DNA from: Cryomorpha ignava
GTDB lineage: Bacteria; Bacteroidota; Bacteroidia; Flavobacteriales_D; Cryomorphaceae
Assembly: GCF_010686655.1 (NCBI RefSeq)
Contig: NZ_JAAGVY010000017.1
Span: forward strand, 1-64,000
Direction of reading: 5' to 3'
DNA: 64,000 bases
Shown here: in pieces, positions 5,793-56,305 of the stretch
Position numbering within the stretch: the first letter of the stretch is position 1
How the letters are laid out: every line of letters begins with the position of its first letter
Notes under the pieces: generated by a model
Database searches by the model: none
What the model saw: only the letters and a program-made list of their open reading frames with translations
What the model was told of the DNA's origin: nothing
Position numbers and translations under genes: made by a program

Positions 5793-6500
5793 GTGAGTCT
5801 CGAGTCACGAGTCTCTTGTCGCGAGGGGTTTGCGCAATACTTATCTCGATTTGCTAAATATTTAAGTCGTGCCAGAGCTCTGGTCGAGAGGAAATTGTCT
5901 CGCGTCGCTAGTCGCGAGAGGTTTGCGCAGGGTTCGTTTGCTTTTGGAGACATTATTACTTTGCCAAAAGCTGGAATAATTGCCTTCGAGGTGTAATTTT
6001 TCAAGAAGTGTGACGAAGTATTTATCATTAACAATCTCAGTGGAATTACACTGAAATCTAAATTTTAGAAAGTCCGTTAAATACTATTATTGCGATAAAC
6101 AGAAGTACTCCCTTGCCACTCGCGACTATAGCAAGTTCCTCCAAACTCTCCATTGCCCATTAGGCGAGAAGTACCCGCCCCGCGACTAGAGACTCCCGAC
6201 TAGAAACTCGCCACCATAATCTGTTAAATTCTCCATTGCCCATGAAGCGAGAAGTACCCGCCTCGCGACTCGCGACTAGTGACTCGCGACTAAAGACTAG
6301 CGACTAGTGACTCGCGACTAGAAACTCGCCACCATACTCCGCCAAACTCTCCATTGCCCATGAAGCGAGAAGTACCCGCCTCGCGACTAGTGACTCGCGA
6401 CTAAAGACTCGCGACTAGAAACTCGACACCATACTCCGCCAAACTCTCCATTGCCCATGAAGTACCCGCCTCGCGGCTAGAGACTCGCGACTCGCGACTA
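5793..6500. repeat. Inverted and tandem repeat array (GCGACTnGnGACTCGCGAC family)
   Basis: Non-coding array. The left end (5793-5826) reads GAGTCTCGAGTCACGAGTCT then TTGTCGCGAGG, and a related copy sits at 5905-5937. The right part (6110-6500) has the opposite orientation and contains four copies of a module beginning CCAAACTCTCCATTGCCCAT (near 6141, 6223, 6342 and 6439), each followed by GAAGTACCCGCC and runs of CGCGACTAGnGACT. The two ends are therefore inverted relative to each other around a less repetitive core (about 5940-6110). The modules follow each other without variable spacers, so it is not CRISPR. The open frames inside are by-products of the repeats. Confidence 0.85.
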
Positions 6501-6521
6501 AAAAAAGCATCAGCTTTTTTT
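6500..6521 (-). terminator. Rho-independent terminator overlapping the stop codon
   Basis: AAAAAAAGC / GCTTTTTTT arms (6500-6508 and 6513-6521) around an ATCA loop. The TGA stop of the GNAT-nitrilase gene lies in the loop. It is T-rich on both strands. Confidence 0.55.
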
Positions 6522-19724: not shown

Positions 19725-19735
19725 AGAGAGTAATT

Positions 19736-19793
19736 TATTGATTTATGATTTCAGATTCCAGATTTATGATTTCAGATTTATGATTTCAGATTG
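19736..19793. repeat. Short-period repeat (GATTTCAGATTTAT words)
   Basis: Three to four imperfect tandem copies of GATTTATGATTTCA. The same style of word recurs at 44133-44165 and 63700-63720. Confidence 0.7.
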
Positions 19794-19858
19794 GCTTTGC
19801 TAAGACCCGTAATGGCCCTTCATTTCTTAATGGTACGAGATGGTTATCATTTCCAGCC

Positions 19859-20827: not shown

Positions 20828-21384
20828 CCCTTAACTCCTTAATGTTTTTTCTTAATGGTTAATTTTTTTTATGAACCATAAGGTATTTTAACCATTAAGT
20901 CTTCGAACCATTAAGGAATTAAGAAAATTAAGCCGTAGCGCTCACAACCCAATCCTTAATGCCCTTAGCTCCTTAATGATTTTTCTTAATGGTTATTTTT
21001 TTATGAACCATAAGGTATTTTAACCATTAAGGAATTAAGAAAATTAAGCCGTAGCGCTCACAACCCAAACCTTAATGCCCTTAACTCCTTAATGATTTTT
21101 CTTAATGGTTATTTTTTTATGAACCATAAGGTATTTTAACCATTAAGTCTTCGAACCATTAAGGAATTAAGAAAATTAAGCCGTAGCGCTCACGACCCAA
21201 TCCTTAATGCCCTTAACTCCTTAATGATTTTTTTTAATGGTTAATTTTTTTTATGAACCATTAGGTATTTTAACCATTAAGTCTTCGAACCATTAAGGAG
21301 TTAAGAAAATTAAGCCGTAGCGCTCACGACCCAAACCTTAATGCCCTTAACTCCTTAATAATTTTTCTTAATGGTTAATTTTTA
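20828..21384. repeat. Tandem array A of hairpin-forming units (116-134 bp)
   Basis: Four full units start at 20828, 20962, 21078 and 21210, and a half unit starts at 21344. A unit opens with CCCTTAACTCCTTAATG, then TTCTTAATGGTTAATTTTTT, ATGAACCATAAGGTATTTT, AACCATTAAGTCTTCGAACC, ATTAAGGAATTAAG and AAAATTAAGCCGTAGCGCTC, and ends CTTAATG. The first part is the inverted complement of the AACCATTAAG/AATTAAG part, so each unit can fold on itself. The second unit lacks about 17 bp. The fifth unit is interrupted in its loop by the GxxExxY gene. Confidence 0.9.
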
Positions 21385-21789
21385 ATCTGGTAGCTCGCGG
21401 AAATATTCATTCACAAATGGCTTCAAGCTCTTAGTAATGTTTTCAGTAAAGAAATTTATCAGAAGTCCTTGAGGCTTTTTGAGTAGTTTCATATACGTAA
21501 GTAACTGTGCTTCATGCACAGGCTGGGTTTTCTCTATAGCTTTTAATTCTACCACAACTGTATCGTTAACCAATAAATCGAGCCGAAGATCGACATCCAT
21601 TTCCAAATCGTCATAGATTACTGGCACAAACATTTGATGCTGTACATCATATCCATTTTTAATCAATTCGTATTTCAGACATTTTTCATATACACATTCC
21701 AAAAGTCCGGGTCCTAATGCTTTGTGTACTTTTATGGCCAGACCTGTTATATCGTAAGACAGTTGGGTGATTGATGTTTTGGTTTCCAT
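21382..21789 (-). CDS. GxxExxY protein, PD-(D/E)XK nuclease-like
   Basis: 135 residues. The eponymous motif is G28-LL-E31-CV-Y34 in HKALGPGLLECVYEKCL. A PD-(D/E)XK-type core follows: D71 in RLDLLV, then E81-L-K83 in VVVELKAIEK, and an H-x-x-Q motif (H92, Q95) in VHEAQLLTYMKLL; GLLINF follows. All positions expected for metal-dependent phosphodiester cleavage are present. The biological role of the family is not established to my knowledge. The gene sits inside one unit of repeat array A: its stop codon is formed at the edge of the left half-unit (21384) and the right half-unit resumes 40 bp upstream of its start. This arrangement, repeated with different DNA at 55.5 kb, suggests an element that carries its own nuclease. 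Confidence 0.88.
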   Translation of the reverse strand: METKTSITQLSYDITGLAIKVHKALGPGLLECVYEKCLKYELIKNGYDVQHQMFVPVIYDDLEMDVDLRLDLLVNDTVVVELKAIEKTQPVHEAQLLTYMKLLKKPQGLLINFFTENITKSLKPFVNEYFRELPD

Positions 21790-21828
21790 AATGTTCGTTA
21801 TTTTTCTGTGAATCTAATAAATCCGATC

Positions 21829-21974
21829 CTAATGGTTTTATATTTTGAACCATAAGGTATTTTAACCATTAAGTCTTCGAACCATTAAGGAATTAAGAAA
21901 ATTAAGCCGTAGCGCTCACGACCCAAACCTTAATGCCCTTAACTTCTTAATGATTTTTCTCAATGGTTCAAACC
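21829..21974. repeat. Right part of repeat array A
   Basis: Resumes the unit broken by the GxxExxY gene (TATTTTGAACCATAAGGTAT, AACCATTAAGTCTTCGAACC, ATTAAGGAATTAAG, CCGTAGCGCTCACGACCC). A further half unit, CCCTTAACTTCTTAATG, begins at 21936 and runs into the stop of nosY. The DNA may also act as a transcription terminator for the nos operon. Confidence 0.85.
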
Positions 21975-21975
21975 C

Positions 21976-22743
21976 CTAAAGATCGCTTTTGCGGAAGTTT
22001 CTCACAGAACCCAAATACATTACAGCAACCCAAAGAAGCAGGGCTGAAAACGAAATAACCAACCCTTTCATACTTCCAAAGAAATCGACAAAAACCGCTC
22101 CCGACAGCCCCATCATCGCGCTGGCATCGGTTTGCATGATTACGCTTATCCGCGAAATATCGATTGGATTTAAAAAGGTCAAAATCAAAATAAGTTTTTC
22201 GATAGGGTAGGCACCAAATTGATACATTATAAGGATAAGCAATCCATCAAAAAGAAAAGCGAAAAAGGCCCAAAGGATTAAGACTAAACCAATTCCTTTC
22301 ACCTTGTCATTTACTTTGGTGCAGATAAATAGCGCGATGCCCACAAATATCCAAAGCAGAAAATTGCCCGAAACGAGCATAATGACGCTTTCGGGTGAAG
22401 GGTTGTTTAGCAATAACGGAAGCCCAATACCAATGGTGTAAGCAAAAGAAAATGAAATAGAAAGGGCGATGAAAAATGCTTGGATTACGGCGCTTCTTTT
22501 AATGGGATTGGAGAGCAGGAGCACCGTAAATTCGTAAGAATTGTAGTAGTAGATGCAGCTGAAAATAAGGGTAATAAGTGGAAGCAATAGTAACGTAACC
22601 TGCATAACCATCAGCAATGCTTTCTCGGGTTGGTTTTCTATAAAAAACAAGCCCCAGCCAATAGCAACAAAGAGTAGAAAACTACCGATAACTGCCCTAT
22701 TCTTTAAAAGGTCGATTGTTAAATAACGCGCTATCTGAATCAT
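21976..22743 (-). CDS. nosY: ABC transporter permease NosY
   Basis: A 255-residue integral membrane protein with six predicted helices (about 17-33, 40-66, 85-115, 120-142, 148-173 and 225-247) and the gene order of nos clusters: it overlaps nosF by 4 bp and is the last gene of the operon. NosY is the membrane component of the NosDFY transporter, which is needed to build the CuZ centre of N2O reductase. It belongs to the ABC-2 type permeases. The stop codon lies at the edge of repeat array A, so the array may mark the end of the transcript. Confidence 0.9.
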   Translation of the reverse strand: MIQIARYLTIDLLKNRAVIGSFLLFVAIGWGLFFIENQPEKALLMVMQVTLLLLPLITLIFSCIYYYNSYEFTVLLLSNPIKRSAVIQAFFIALSISFSFAYTIGIGLPLLLNNPSPESVIMLVSGNFLLWIFVGIALFICTKVNDKVKGIGLVLILWAFFAFLFDGLLILIMYQFGAYPIEKLILILTFLNPIDISRISVIMQTDASAMMGLSGAVFVDFFGSMKGLVISFSALLLWVAVMYLGSVRNFRKSDL

Positions 22744-53089: not shown

Positions 53090-53787
53090 TGCTTTTGCCC
53101 GCTTTCGTTTTAGGATTTGCCGGCAGCCTGCACTGTGTAGGTATGTGCGGTCCTATTGCTATGGCGGTACCGGTGGGAAAAGGAACTAAACTGCAGCAGG
53201 GCCTTGCCTTTTCGCTTTACCAGTTTGGCCGTATTTCGGCTTATGCCATTATCGGATTTCTTTTTGGCGTTCTGGGATTTGGACTCAATATGGCAGGTTT
53301 TCAACAAGGACTTTCACTTACAATAGGAATATTGATGTTACTTTTTATCTGGTTTCCAAAACTATTCGGAAAGCTTGGAATGACACATGGTCTGGCAAAA
53401 TACCAATCGCGGGTTACCCGGTTTATGGCTGTAAGGCTTAAAAGCAATAGATTGCCCGCCCTTCTGGGACTCGGGTTTTTTAATGGTTTTCTTCCCTGCG
53501 GACTTGTATACATTGCACTTGCTGGTTCGGTAGCCACATACAACCCATTTTACGGAGCCCTTTTTATGGCTGCTTTTGGCCTTGGAACCGCTCCTGCATT
53601 ATTCCTTGTCGGCTTTACCGGAAGGCAAATAAGTGTTTCACTGCGCTCCCAATTTAGAAAAGTAGCACCCATTATTGCTACTGTTTTTGCCCTGCTTTTT
53701 ATCCTTCGCGGATTGGGCATGGGCATCCCATTTTTGAGCCCGGAATTGGGCACTACCATTACAAATACAGAAACTTGTGACCCATGA
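53086..53787 (+). CDS. TauE/SafE-type membrane protein of the cco operon
   Basis: 233 residues with about six membrane helices. The N-terminal LPAFVLGFAGSLHCVGMCGPI matches the CcoI-associated cytochrome-biogenesis type (PF13386/DsbD-like 2), where the Cys-x3-Cys of HCVGMCGP probably handles copper. It is fused into the operon by 4-bp overlaps with ccoH and hemN. Likely role: copper handling during oxidase assembly. It is not a true sulphite exporter in this context. Confidence 0.85.
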   Translation: MMLLPAFVLGFAGSLHCVGMCGPIAMAVPVGKGTKLQQGLAFSLYQFGRISAYAIIGFLFGVLGFGLNMAGFQQGLSLTIGILMLLFIWFPKLFGKLGMTHGLAKYQSRVTRFMAVRLKSNRLPALLGLGFFNGFLPCGLVYIALAGSVATYNPFYGALFMAAFGLGTAPALFLVGFTGRQISVSLRSQFRKVAPIIATVFALLFILRGLGMGIPFLSPELGTTITNTETCDP

Positions 53788-55139
53788 AAGCACTGATAGA
53801 AAAATATAATACTCCCGTACCACGCTACACCAGTTATCCCACAGTGCCTAACTGGAAACCCGATACTTTTCATAAAGAATCTTACCTCGAAAGACTTACA
53901 AATGGTTTTTCACAGGCCAATGCCGATGGAATTTCTGTTTATGTGCACCTTCCATTCTGCGAAAGCTTATGTACTTACTGCGGTTGCAATACGCGCATAA
54001 CCGTTAATCATAAAGTAGAAGTGCCTTACGCCGAAGCAGTAGTAAAAGAATGGGCGCTTATGAAAACCCATTTTACGCATACTCCGCGTATTCGCGAAAT
54101 CCACCTCGGTGGTGGAACACCTACCTTTTTCTCACCGGCAAATTTAAAAATGCTTGTTGAAGGGATTTTAGAAGGTGCAGATATTCTCGCTGATGCCTCG
54201 TTTAGCTTTGAAGCGCACCCAAACAATACTACACAAGAACACCTTGACGTTTTGCGAAGCCTCGGCTTTGACAGATTGAGCCTGGGTATTCAGGATTTTG
54301 ATCCAAAAGTGCAAAAGGCCATTAACCGAAAGCAAACCGTTGAAGATGTGGATCGCGTAATGAGCGGCGCAAAAAAAGCGGGCTACCGTTCTGTAAATTT
54401 TGATCTGGTTTACGGACTTCCTTTTCAAACTGTGGAAGGAGTGCAGGATGCAGTTGAAAAAGTAATCGAATTAAAACCCGATAGAATTGCGTTTTACAGC
54501 TACGCTCACGTTCCGTGGATGCATCCGGGTCAACGCGCATACAGCGAGGCCGATCTTCCAAGTCCTGAATTAAAGCTGGCAATCTTTACAATGGGTCGCC
54601 AAATGCTACTTGATGCGGGATACGAAGCAATTGGTTTTGACCATTTTGCATTAAAAACAGACAGTTTATACAAGGCTTACGCCAATGGTACCATGCACCG
54701 TAATTTTATGGGCTTTTCAGATTTGCGCACTGATTATTTAATTGGCCTTGGCGTTTCATCTATAAGCGATATCAGAAATGGTTTTGCACAGAATATTAAG
54801 GCAGTAGAGCCTTATATCGAAAAAGTAAACAACGGTATACTTCCAATTTTCAAAGGTCACCTTCATACACAAGCGGATAGCTTTATACGCGGTCAGATTT
54901 TGAATCTGACCTGCAAGCACCACACTTCCTGGAAAGATGGCACGCCCGAGCAAAAAGAATATATGCGCAGTTGCCTTCCTCGGTTGGAGGAATGCGCAGA
55001 CGACGGTTTAGCAGTGATTGGTGACGACGCCGTGCGCGTAACCGAAAAAGGGCAGGTTTTTGTGCGCCATATTTGTGCTGCTTTTGATGCCGATATGCAA
55101 CAGGCGGAAGTGAAACAGCGCTATGCGCAGGGGGTGTAG
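53784..55139 (+). CDS. hemN: Oxygen-independent coproporphyrinogen III oxidase HemN
   Basis: 451 residues. A radical SAM enzyme with PFCESLCTYCGCN: C59-x3-C63-x2-C66 ligates the 4Fe-4S cluster and C68 completes the CxxxCxxCxC set of HemN. HLGGGTPTFFS follows, with LSLGIQDFDPKVQKAINR and YSYAHVPWMHPGQRA. It converts coproporphyrinogen III to protoporphyrinogen IX without O2 for haem synthesis, which fits expression together with a high-affinity oxidase. It is the last gene of the operon. Repeat array B begins 4 bp after the stop. Confidence 0.96.
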   Translation: MKALIEKYNTPVPRYTSYPTVPNWKPDTFHKESYLERLTNGFSQANADGISVYVHLPFCESLCTYCGCNTRITVNHKVEVPYAEAVVKEWALMKTHFTHTPRIREIHLGGGTPTFFSPANLKMLVEGILEGADILADASFSFEAHPNNTTQEHLDVLRSLGFDRLSLGIQDFDPKVQKAINRKQTVEDVDRVMSGAKKAGYRSVNFDLVYGLPFQTVEGVQDAVEKVIELKPDRIAFYSYAHVPWMHPGQRAYSEADLPSPELKLAIFTMGRQMLLDAGYEAIGFDHFALKTDSLYKAYANGTMHRNFMGFSDLRTDYLIGLGVSSISDIRNGFAQNIKAVEPYIEKVNNGILPIFKGHLHTQADSFIRGQILNLTCKHHTSWKDGTPEQKEYMRSCLPRLEECADDGLAVIGDDAVRVTEKGQVFVRHICAAFDADMQQAEVKQRYAQGV

Positions 55140-55142
55140 ATT

Positions 55143-55390
55143 CGCAAAGGCGCAAAGATATTGTTTTGCTTGTGCTTCGCACTTCGCTTTAGGTCTCGCA
55201 ACTAAGCGAAGCGTTTTCACGACTGAAAGGAGCCCGTAGGGTGAGCGCAGCGAATAAAGGCGCAAAGACGCAAAGGTTTTGTTTTAGTTTTGCTTCGCAC
55301 TTCGCTTGAGGTCTCGCAACTAAGCGAAGCGTTTTCACGACTGAAAGGAGCCCGTAGGGTGAGCGCAGCGAATAAAGGCGCAAAGGTTTT
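55143..55390. repeat. Left repeat array B (two 118-bp units)
   Basis: Two units (55143-55260 and 55261-55378) and the start of a third. A unit opens with CGCAAAGACGCAAAGG, contains TTCGCACTTCGCTTGAGGTC and CTCGCAACTAAGCGAAGCG, then GAAAGGAGCCCGTAGGGTGA and GCGCAGCGAATAAAGG. The two copies are nearly identical apart from their first 30 bp. Inner dyads (TTCGC...GCGAA) allow folding. The CGCAAAG words are inverted relative to those in the right array (55981-56286). Confidence 0.92.
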
Positions 55391-55499
55391 TGTATTTGAG
55401 AAGTTGATTTTATCTACGTTTTGAATATTCGTGATTGGCTATAGGACTTCTTACGGGGGACTTATAGGTTTGAGGATATTAAAATCACTATATTGCATA

Positions 55500-55877
55500 A
55501 TGACTGAAAATGAAATTGCAAAAATTATTGTGAATGTAGCCTTTGACATCCACAAAACTCTGGGTCCGGGATTATTGGAATCTGTGTATGAAGAAGTAAT
55601 GGTCTATGAATTAGTGAGTCTGGGCCTGGATGTTCAAAGGCAAAAACCAATTGCAGTAATCTGGAAAGACATAAAAATGAACGTTGGTTTTAGAGCCGAC
55701 TTGATTATTGAAAACAAAGTCATTGTAGAGCTTAAATCAGTTGCGGCTATTTCTCCCGTTTTCCCAAAAACATTACTCACATATCTGAAAATAACCGACT
55801 TAAAACTCGGCCTTTTAATCAACTTTAATGTGAGTTTGATCAAAGATGGAATTACCCGCATAGCAAATAACCTCTAA
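55500..55877 (+). CDS. GxxExxY protein, PD-(D/E)XK nuclease-like (second copy)
   Basis: 125 residues. HKTLGPGLLESVYEEVM carries G24-LL-E27-SV-Y30. The nuclease-like core D67 (FRADLII) and E77-L-K79 (VIVELKSV) is retained. The HxxQ of the array-A homologue is replaced (PVFPKTLLTYLKI instead of PVHEAQLLTYMKL), so the active site may be altered. Shared phrases with the 21.4-kb protein (HK-LGPGLLE-VYE, VELK, LLTY-K, GLLINF) show common descent, but the two are too different to be a recent duplication. The ATG at 55500 is preferred over 55431 since the family starts close to the first helix. It is flanked by array B on both sides. Confidence 0.88.
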   Translation: MTENEIAKIIVNVAFDIHKTLGPGLLESVYEEVMVYELVSLGLDVQRQKPIAVIWKDIKMNVGFRADLIIENKVIVELKSVAAISPVFPKTLLTYLKITDLKLGLLINFNVSLIKDGITRIANNL

Positions 55878-55980
55878 GAAATGGACTTTAACAAAGCTCG
55901 CATAGTAAATTCACATCATTAAATTAGCCCAAGCCCACCGCAACCCCCCGCACCCACCTTATCCACCGCCACCAACCACA

Positions 55981-56286
55981 TAGACGCTCCCCAATGCGTC
56001 TTAGCGTGTTAGCGAGAGAAAAAAGAGAGCATAGCGAACAAACCCTACCCCATATCCAGCAACCCCAATTCTCCTTTGCGTCTTTGCGCCTTTGCGAGAG
56101 AATAAAGAGAGCTTAGCGAACAAACCCTACCCCATATCCAGCAACCCCAATTCTCCTTTGCGTCTTTGCGCCTTTGCGAGAGAATAAAGTGAGCTTAGCG
56201 AACAAACCCTACCCCATATCCAGCAACCCCAATTCTCCTTTGCGTCTTTGCGCCTTTGCGAGAGAATAAAGTGAGCGTAGCGAACG
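55981..56286. repeat. Right repeat array B (82-bp units)
   Basis: Three nearly perfect units of 82 bp starting with AACCCTACCCCATATCCAGC at 56041, 56123 and 56205, each containing CTCCTTTGCGTCTTTGCGCC, TTTGCGAGAGAATAAAG and GAGCTTAGCGAAC. A degenerate unit precedes them (55981-56040). CTTTGCG words are the inverted complement of the CGCAAAG words in the left array. The units abut, without variable spacers. Confidence 0.92.
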
Positions 56287-56305
56287 AACCCAAACCACTT
56301 TTCGT

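Follow-up and report, generated by a model that had tools for sequence, protein, structure and literature searches.

Inverted word arrays around GxxExxY genes in Cryomorpha ignava and other Bacteroidota: a likely overlooked family of mobile hairpins

The hairpin array of Cryomorpha ignava and the other elements of its genome

The window analysed here comprises 64,000 nt of Cryomorpha ignava contig NZ_JAAGVY010000017.1 (GCF_010686655.1), positions 1-64,000 of the forward strand. At 20828-21974, an array of tandem units of 116-134 bp is found, the parts of which are mutually complementary. Four units without a gene stand in tandem at 20828-20961 (134 bp, with CATTAAG/CTTAATG words), 20962-21077 (116 bp), 21078-21209 (132 bp), and 21210-21343 (134 bp), and are 83-96% identical to the last of them. 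The stretch 21203-21336, which overlaps the fourth unit, folds strongly, at -35.8 kcal/mol compared to a shuffle mean of -17.2 (z -5.5). The following unit bears a gene. In gene orientation, its left half (21344-21383; unit positions 1-40, 95% identical) lies downstream of the gene and its right half (21830-21935; unit positions 26-134, 93% identical) lies upstream. The gene (21382-21789, minus strand) encodes a PD-(D/E)XK nuclease-like GxxExxY protein of 135 aa with E31, D71, E81-x-K83, Q95, and Y99, and its stop codon falls inside the left half of the unit. A terminal partial unit (21936-21968/21974) ends 2 nt short of the stop codon, at 21976, of a co-directional ABC permease gene (21976-22743, minus strand), which we take, by gene order and content, to be the last gene of a nos (nitrous-oxide reductase)-like operon. 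The focal element sits between protein genes and not in a 23S rRNA gene, and an Rfam search of the window gave no match to a known RNA. Further copies of the CATTAAG word, without a gene, occur elsewhere in the genome.

A preliminary description, made from the sequence alone, had proposed units of about 130 bp with complementary halves, gene-less units adjoining the gene-bearing one, and the residues G28/E31/Y34, D71, E81, K83, H92, and Q95 in the protein. These claims held: four full gene-less units and a terminal partial copy are present, and the same residues are conserved over 212 relatives. It had also placed the gene in the position of the unit's loop, which held only in part. One unit is interrupted, but unit positions 26-40 (TAATGGTT...) are present on both sides of the gene; the arrangement is therefore an interruption of the unit and not a clean replacement of its loop. 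The right half had been said to restart at 21829 with a given string. That coordinate was off: unit homology starts again at 21830 (TAATGGTTTTATA...), the string TATTTTGAACCATAAGG starts at 21841, and the position assigned to TATTTTGAACC was 12 bp too early. Clade-specific words, a second element in the window, and four-helix-bundle genes with a like architecture had been missed.

Inverted arms surround 5 of the 5 GxxExxY genes of the C. ignava genome, and the word repeated within the arms differs from gene to gene: CATTAAG/ATTAAG at the focal gene (L016), CGCAAAG at L014, TGTCTGAA and TAGGATT (GGATT) at L013, which lies inside a type I restriction locus, AGGAT/AAGAT at L015, and CACGAAT at L017. 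The element of L014 is the second one in the window (55143-56291). Its left inverted array (55143-55385; CGCAAAG words, 118-bp units) starts 4 nt past the stop codon of a HemN-like gene (53784-55139) directly before it. The GxxExxY gene (55500-55877, plus strand) belongs to a different clade, its protein being 42% identical to the focal one, and the right inverted array (55995-56291; CTTTGCG words, 82-bp units) ends 26 nt before the next start codon. The gene-less tandem units of L015 hold DNA homologous to an eroded gene 5' end (ATGAAGCATCATGAG...LTHKII), and are therefore truncated gene-bearing units, that is, internally deleted derivatives.

Several minor features were also recorded. The L013 element, at 1501-1842 with TGTCTGAA...TAGGATT arms, is flanked by genes resembling hsdR and hsdS. 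At locus L006 (1501-1850), CATTAAG arms enclose about 200 bp of unrelated non-coding sequence with CCCCAAGCTAAAAGCTTGG, which is also present in L012 and represents another interspersed palindrome. In the window, a heptamer array (ATTTATG/ATTTCAG) with one degenerate CTTAATGG arm behind it is located at 19733-19835, about 1 kb from the focal array, and an AACTAAA heptamer array is located at the window edge (14-52).

Arms, words, and site occupancy across Bacteroidota

The sample consisted of 118 Bacteroidota genomes (59 with the GxxExxY family) in addition to the C. ignava genome and its family, from which 142 genes with flanks were randomly drawn. The arm score was defined as the local alignment of the upstream flank to the reverse complement of the downstream flank, with a threshold of at least 15. 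This threshold was reached by 53.5% of the 142 genes, compared to 1.5% of re-paired flanks of different loci and 0.4% of shifted positions (Mann-Whitney p 7e-45 and 6e-33, respectively). Arms were likewise found at 54.8% of GxxExxY genes and 4.2% of neighbouring small ORFs. Whether homologues are flanked by inverted repeats, a check proposed at the outset, is thus answered positively, far above three controls and at 5/5 genes of the own genome; for the related check of whether every such gene is flanked, arms were undetectable in about 45% of the genes in the Bacteroidota sample.

The family exists in half of the sampled Bacteroidota genomes, at 1-12 genes per genome, and a 9-nt periodicity is raised in the flanks. 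In 80 closer relatives, ATTAAG word pairs have a density of about 10 per kb up to 250 bp from the gene, and they flank it on both sides in 60; beyond 1 kb they are mostly at 0-0.2 per kb, with a few denser bins. The same layout is shown by GC-rich word families (CGCAAAG, CCGCAGAGG). Plasmid-borne GxxExxY genes of Bacteroides, Bernardetia, and Gemmatirosa, the last belonging to another phylum, have CACAGAG/CGCAGAG-type arms. A Sphingomonas copy between fabD and fabG has one arm, and a Prevotella copy has no clear arm pair. No match to the family was found among 50,697 phage records searched for phage carriage. As a separate observation, copies are seen within operons, between fabD and fabG (L272, Sphingomonas), radA and an FAD gene (L274, Bacteroides), and ade and a mannose guanylyltransferase gene (L271, Bernardetia).

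Flank similarity over 212 loci climbs steeply above 60% protein identity. Considering only pairs of loci without a shared neighbour, arms are common to 84% at 65-70% protein identity (1210 pairs), 93% at 70-75% (866 pairs), and 98% at 75-80% (296 pairs), and to just 2% below 45%. Synteny was rejected as the cause of shared arms, the effect being equal in pairs without a common flanking gene. Clades with words other than CATTAAG display the same trend more weakly (54% at 70-80% and 40% at 65-70% identity). In Flavobacterium, two clades were split by protein identity alone, the clade-B genes being counted at an identity of at least 0.63. ATTAAG words occur at 21 of 21 clade-A genes and ATATAAG as a word at none of these, and ATATAAG words occur at 21 of the 23 clade-B genes, with no exchange between the clades; the two remaining clade-B genes (L404 and L413) have neither word. 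It can be seen that the gene moves to unrelated sites along with its arms and that the word matches the protein clade. Arms and gene are physically linked, however, and therefore their co-divergence alone is no proof of recognition. At the variable dinucleotides of solo units, the two arms of a unit match more closely than in shuffled controls (p 0.016/0.003; second test p<1e-4). In 40 non-syntenic members of the CATTAAG clade, own-arm complementarity was not significantly above that across loci (p 0.21), and compensatory arm evolution is therefore not shown in this clade.

For one Flavobacterium locus, the hemA and hemC flanks were joined and used as a query against 121 Flavobacterium genomes, and 30 matches were inspected together with earlier loci. 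The site is empty in many genomes, where hemA and hemC overlap as TAATG. Elsewhere it holds gene-less hairpins of 100-187 bp (CATTAAG type in one case, CATATAAG type in others), a 495-bp gene-less array in one genome, remnants of 30-45 bp in four, and elements of 499-824 bp with the gene in the remaining inspected genomes. Three further sites, taken from one genome, carry different word families in sister species, and 2 of the 3 are also empty in others; among them, a CACGGAT element is nested in the loop of a CATTAAG element. Hairpin doublets are dispersed in extragenic space, some solo hairpins lie between convergent genes, and two solo hairpins that were folded gave z-scores of -7.8 and -10.2. 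Mobility is shown by this site comparison, and the route of transposition is inferred. No target-site duplication was resolved at hemA-hemC and the other sites, for which filled and empty states could be compared between species only, and no transposition intermediate was found. The preliminary description had read the locus as an element with inverted termini and MITE-like gene-less derivatives. This is supported by the site comparison and by the eroded gene 5' end in the L015 units. Of the checks it had proposed, the unit with the gene, without the gene, and absent at one site have all been found in Flavobacterium, and the repeat copies vary between species in position and number; neither of the two conditions it had named as refuting the element idea was fulfilled. 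A CCCGATAGCTATCGGGA palindrome, possibly another mobile one, was observed nested in hairpin elements of several Flavobacterium genomes (L377, L376, L389).

Copy number was compared over the 121 genomes. The 21 genomes with a clade-A gene hold a median of 22 copies of the CATTAAG pattern and the 100 without it hold 1 (p 4e-9), and the reversed pattern, used as a control, gave no significant difference in the 121 genomes. For the CATATAAG pattern, the medians are 14 with a clade-B gene and 0.5 without (p 2e-5; 121 genomes). When genome size is included as a covariate, the number of A repeats depends on gene A (t 6.4) but not gene B (t 0.8), and that of B repeats on gene B (t 4.1) but not gene A (t 0.7). 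Copy number follows the cognate and not the non-cognate gene, with the reservation that these statistics over related genomes ignore shared descent (no tree correction). This dependence and the sharing of arms between non-syntenic loci give good support to the earlier inference that protein and repeat spread together. At least 12 CATTAAG copies exist despite the absence of a clade-A gene in 16 Flavobacterium genomes; in 7 of these, the other GxxExxY genes examined carry other words, and loss of the cognate gene is therefore the likely reason for the orphan copies. Regarding orientation, 88 elements are in sense with both neighbours and 9 are antisense. The median distance is 8 nt between the upstream stop codon and the beginning of the left arm, and 11 nt between the end of the right arm and the following start codon. 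Survivorship alone may explain both the sense orientation and the placement between cistrons; by inference, such a position would also allow the gene to be transcribed with the host operon.

The GxxExxY protein and the competing explanations

The focal protein matches TIGR04256 (GxxExxY; E 3e-39, 133.9 bits, cut-off 35) and PF13366 (PDDEXK_3; E 4e-37, 127.7 bits, cut-off 22). No other profile matched in these searches, and an HUH (Y1) transposase is not encoded. Residues E31, D71, E81, K83, Q95, and Y99 are conserved at 96-100% in 212 proteins, and the catalytic signature D...ExK...QxxxY is present. ExK together with QxxxY is the signature of PD-(D/E)XK enzymes of the Cas4/RecB/lambda-exonuclease type. 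An AlphaFold2 model (pLDDT 91) gave Cas4 SSO0001 (4ic1) as the top Foldseek match (prob 0.99, E 3e-3), with a VIA-align Z of 8.3, a value near the level of unrelated matches and closely followed by those of other PD-(D/E)XK proteins. A sequence search for solved-structure relatives of the protein found none. The four-cysteine Fe-S cluster of Cas4 is absent, there being two cysteines only (C32, C36) and none C-terminal. The PADLOC Cas4 profile matches at E 5e-5, and a defence system was rejected, as PADLOC yields merely this weak similarity. The Cas4/RecB-like relatives indicate DNA as the putative substrate; no activity has been measured. The earlier suggestion that the protein acts on the repeat remains an inference, without data on cleavage, binding, or excision. 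In the open-access literature searched, no function or associated repeats are described for GxxExxY/PF13366; subscription papers were not covered.

It is likely that the gene and its inverted arms constitute a single-gene mobile hairpin with gene-less derivatives, resembling REPIN/RAYT but with an unrelated nuclease-like gene. In the proposed mechanism, a word of about 7 nt that is specific to the clade would occur two or three times in the arms, mostly at steps of 8-10 nt, and the loop of the hairpin would hold one small PD-(D/E)XK gene. Once this gene is lost, hairpins of about 60-200 bp would remain, and these short gene-less hairpins would multiply, both tandemly and dispersed, when the cognate protein is in the cell. 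The protein may bind the array of its cognate word when the hairpin is extruded as ssDNA or a cruciform, for which there are no binding data, and may cut or trim DNA as a Cas4/RecB-like nuclease, an activity that is unmeasured. It would act in cis, and in trans on gene-less copies. Word recognition, cleavage, and excision by the protein are inferred and have not been shown. The elements would survive mainly between a stop codon and the next start, in sense, because they are harmless there and can be read from the host operon.

Two alternatives are considered unlikely. In the first, something other than the GxxExxY protein moves the hairpins, for example slippage during host replication or recombination, or some other transposase; the GxxExxY gene would then be a passenger, or resemble an addiction gene, and profit from residing in the element. 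In its favour, 16 genomes hold at least 12 repeats without the cognate gene, some GxxExxY genes have no arms, and no experiment ties the protein to mobility. However, the strict match of clade and word and the dependence of copy number on the cognate gene only are hard to explain in this manner, and the catalytic residues are nearly invariant. In the second, the element is an RNA-level module like the 23S rRNA intervening sequences (IVS), the transcript hairpin being cut out or limiting damage to the operon and the protein binding or processing its own RNA. The ratio of 88 sense to 9 antisense elements, the median distances of 8 nt from the preceding stop and 11 nt to the next start, the strong RNA hairpins, and the Coxiella IVS, in which heptamer words accompany a loop-borne ORF (PMC4990558), favour it. 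Against it, the Cas4/RecB/lambda-exonuclease relatives work on DNA, the orientation can be explained by survivorship, and solo hairpins also lie between convergent genes.

It is very unlikely that the hairpins are host regulatory structures (terminators or mRNA stabilisers) selected in place, into one of which a gene was inserted by chance. Hairpins at gene ends could terminate transcription, and their RNA folds are strong; however, in sister species these sites are either vacant or occupied by word families of no relation, and word families track the gene and not the locus. The site comparison largely refutes this explanation. Chance or AT-rich low-complexity sequence, suggested by the AT-richness of some words, is all but excluded, being refuted by three null models, reversed-pattern controls, and GC-rich word families of the same layout.

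Known systems and the four-helix-bundle genes

The mobile-hairpin reading can be compared with several described systems. REPIN/RAYT systems, with their REP-associated tyrosine transposases (PMC3116915, PMC2817692), likewise have extragenic hairpins built of inverted doublets, a gene lying between members of its own repeat family, specific pairs of gene and repeat, and dispersed non-autonomous copies. RAYT, however, is an HUH single-strand transposase, whereas the protein here is an unrelated PD-(D/E)XK, Cas4/RecB-like one; the present arms consist of tandem 7-nt words with a step of mostly 8-10 nt, and many orthogonal gene-word pairs coexist, with 1-12 genes per genome. The element is not a member of REPIN/RAYT because the HUH transposase is absent. 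IS/MITE pairs are similar in having an autonomous gene-bearing element with internally deleted derivatives, inverted termini, and empty sites, but here neither a DDE nor an HUH transposase and no target-site duplication was found, and the termini are word arrays instead of a fixed TIR. With Cas4, RecB, and lambda exonuclease, the best fold and profile matches, the protein shares the PD-(D/E)XK core with ExK and QxxxY. It differs in comprising the core only (134 aa), without the four-cysteine Fe-S cluster, and in its partner DNA and genomic context. Each gene lineage uses a separate word, and hairpins lacking the gene are dispersed between genes; the GxxExxY elements thus look like an overlooked family of bacterial jumping hairpins. 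GxxExxY proteins, hitherto without a known role, thereby gain a testable one. The many protein-word pairs, naturally matched and mutually exclusive, would offer ready material for working out a recognition code, and there is technical interest in a small nuclease associated with hairpin DNA.

A similar architecture was found at genes of another fold. All 3 four-helix-bundle genes (PF05635, 23S rRNA IVS protein; L239, L240, and L241) of C. ignava lie between inverted arms of 7-nt words (TTGGTTT, AATGTTG, and GTCACGA). In the phylum, inverted arms are present at 60% of 30 four-helix-bundle loci compared to 1% of re-paired flanks; 48% of the flanks show a periodicity of 7 nt, compared to 3% of control stretches. 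In Coxiella, the 23S IVS contains GACAGAT heptamers beside an S23p ORF within a hairpin element (PMC4990558), and the known IVS therefore fit this four-helix-bundle hairpin class. Such IVS resemble the GxxExxY elements in being short hairpins with one small ORF in the loop, in sense in the host transcript. They differ in that S23p is a four-helix bundle, the words have a 7-nt step, and the known IVS are in rRNA; the loci found here indicate that the four-helix class also exists outside rRNA with the same layout.

Intergenic heptamers of the TAACTGA type have been reported with no evident mechanism of spreading, and a repeat-binding protein was raised as a mobile element (PMC4679880). Together with the cyanobacterial STRR, these are like the present arrays in being intergenic tandem heptamers near gene ends, and they are patchy over Beggiatoaceae, Cyanobacteria, and Bacteroidetes, with their spread unexplained. 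They differ in being described as direct repeats without an associated gene, and they are not known to have been reported in inverted order on either side of four-helix-bundle genes. It is conceivable, as a conjecture, that they belong to the four-helix-bundle class. A bolder reading, to which we incline slightly less than to its opposite, is that of a new class of bacterial mobile DNA in which a Cas4-like nuclease would read a tandem-word code in the arms, each protein lineage with its own word, together with a parallel Avd/S23-like four-helix-bundle class reading 7-nt words. If this is true, many interspersed word repeats of bacteria that so far lack an explanation would be accounted for, as would the 23S rRNA intervening sequences. 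The four-helix-bundle link makes the origin of the latter, a 35-year-old question, and the unexplained heptamer repeats directly testable. Within the window, a GCGACTA-type heptamer array with units of 97-118 bp was also observed at 6120-6502; no four-helix-bundle gene is evident among the ORFs listed beside it, and its words are like those in the arms of L241 on another contig.
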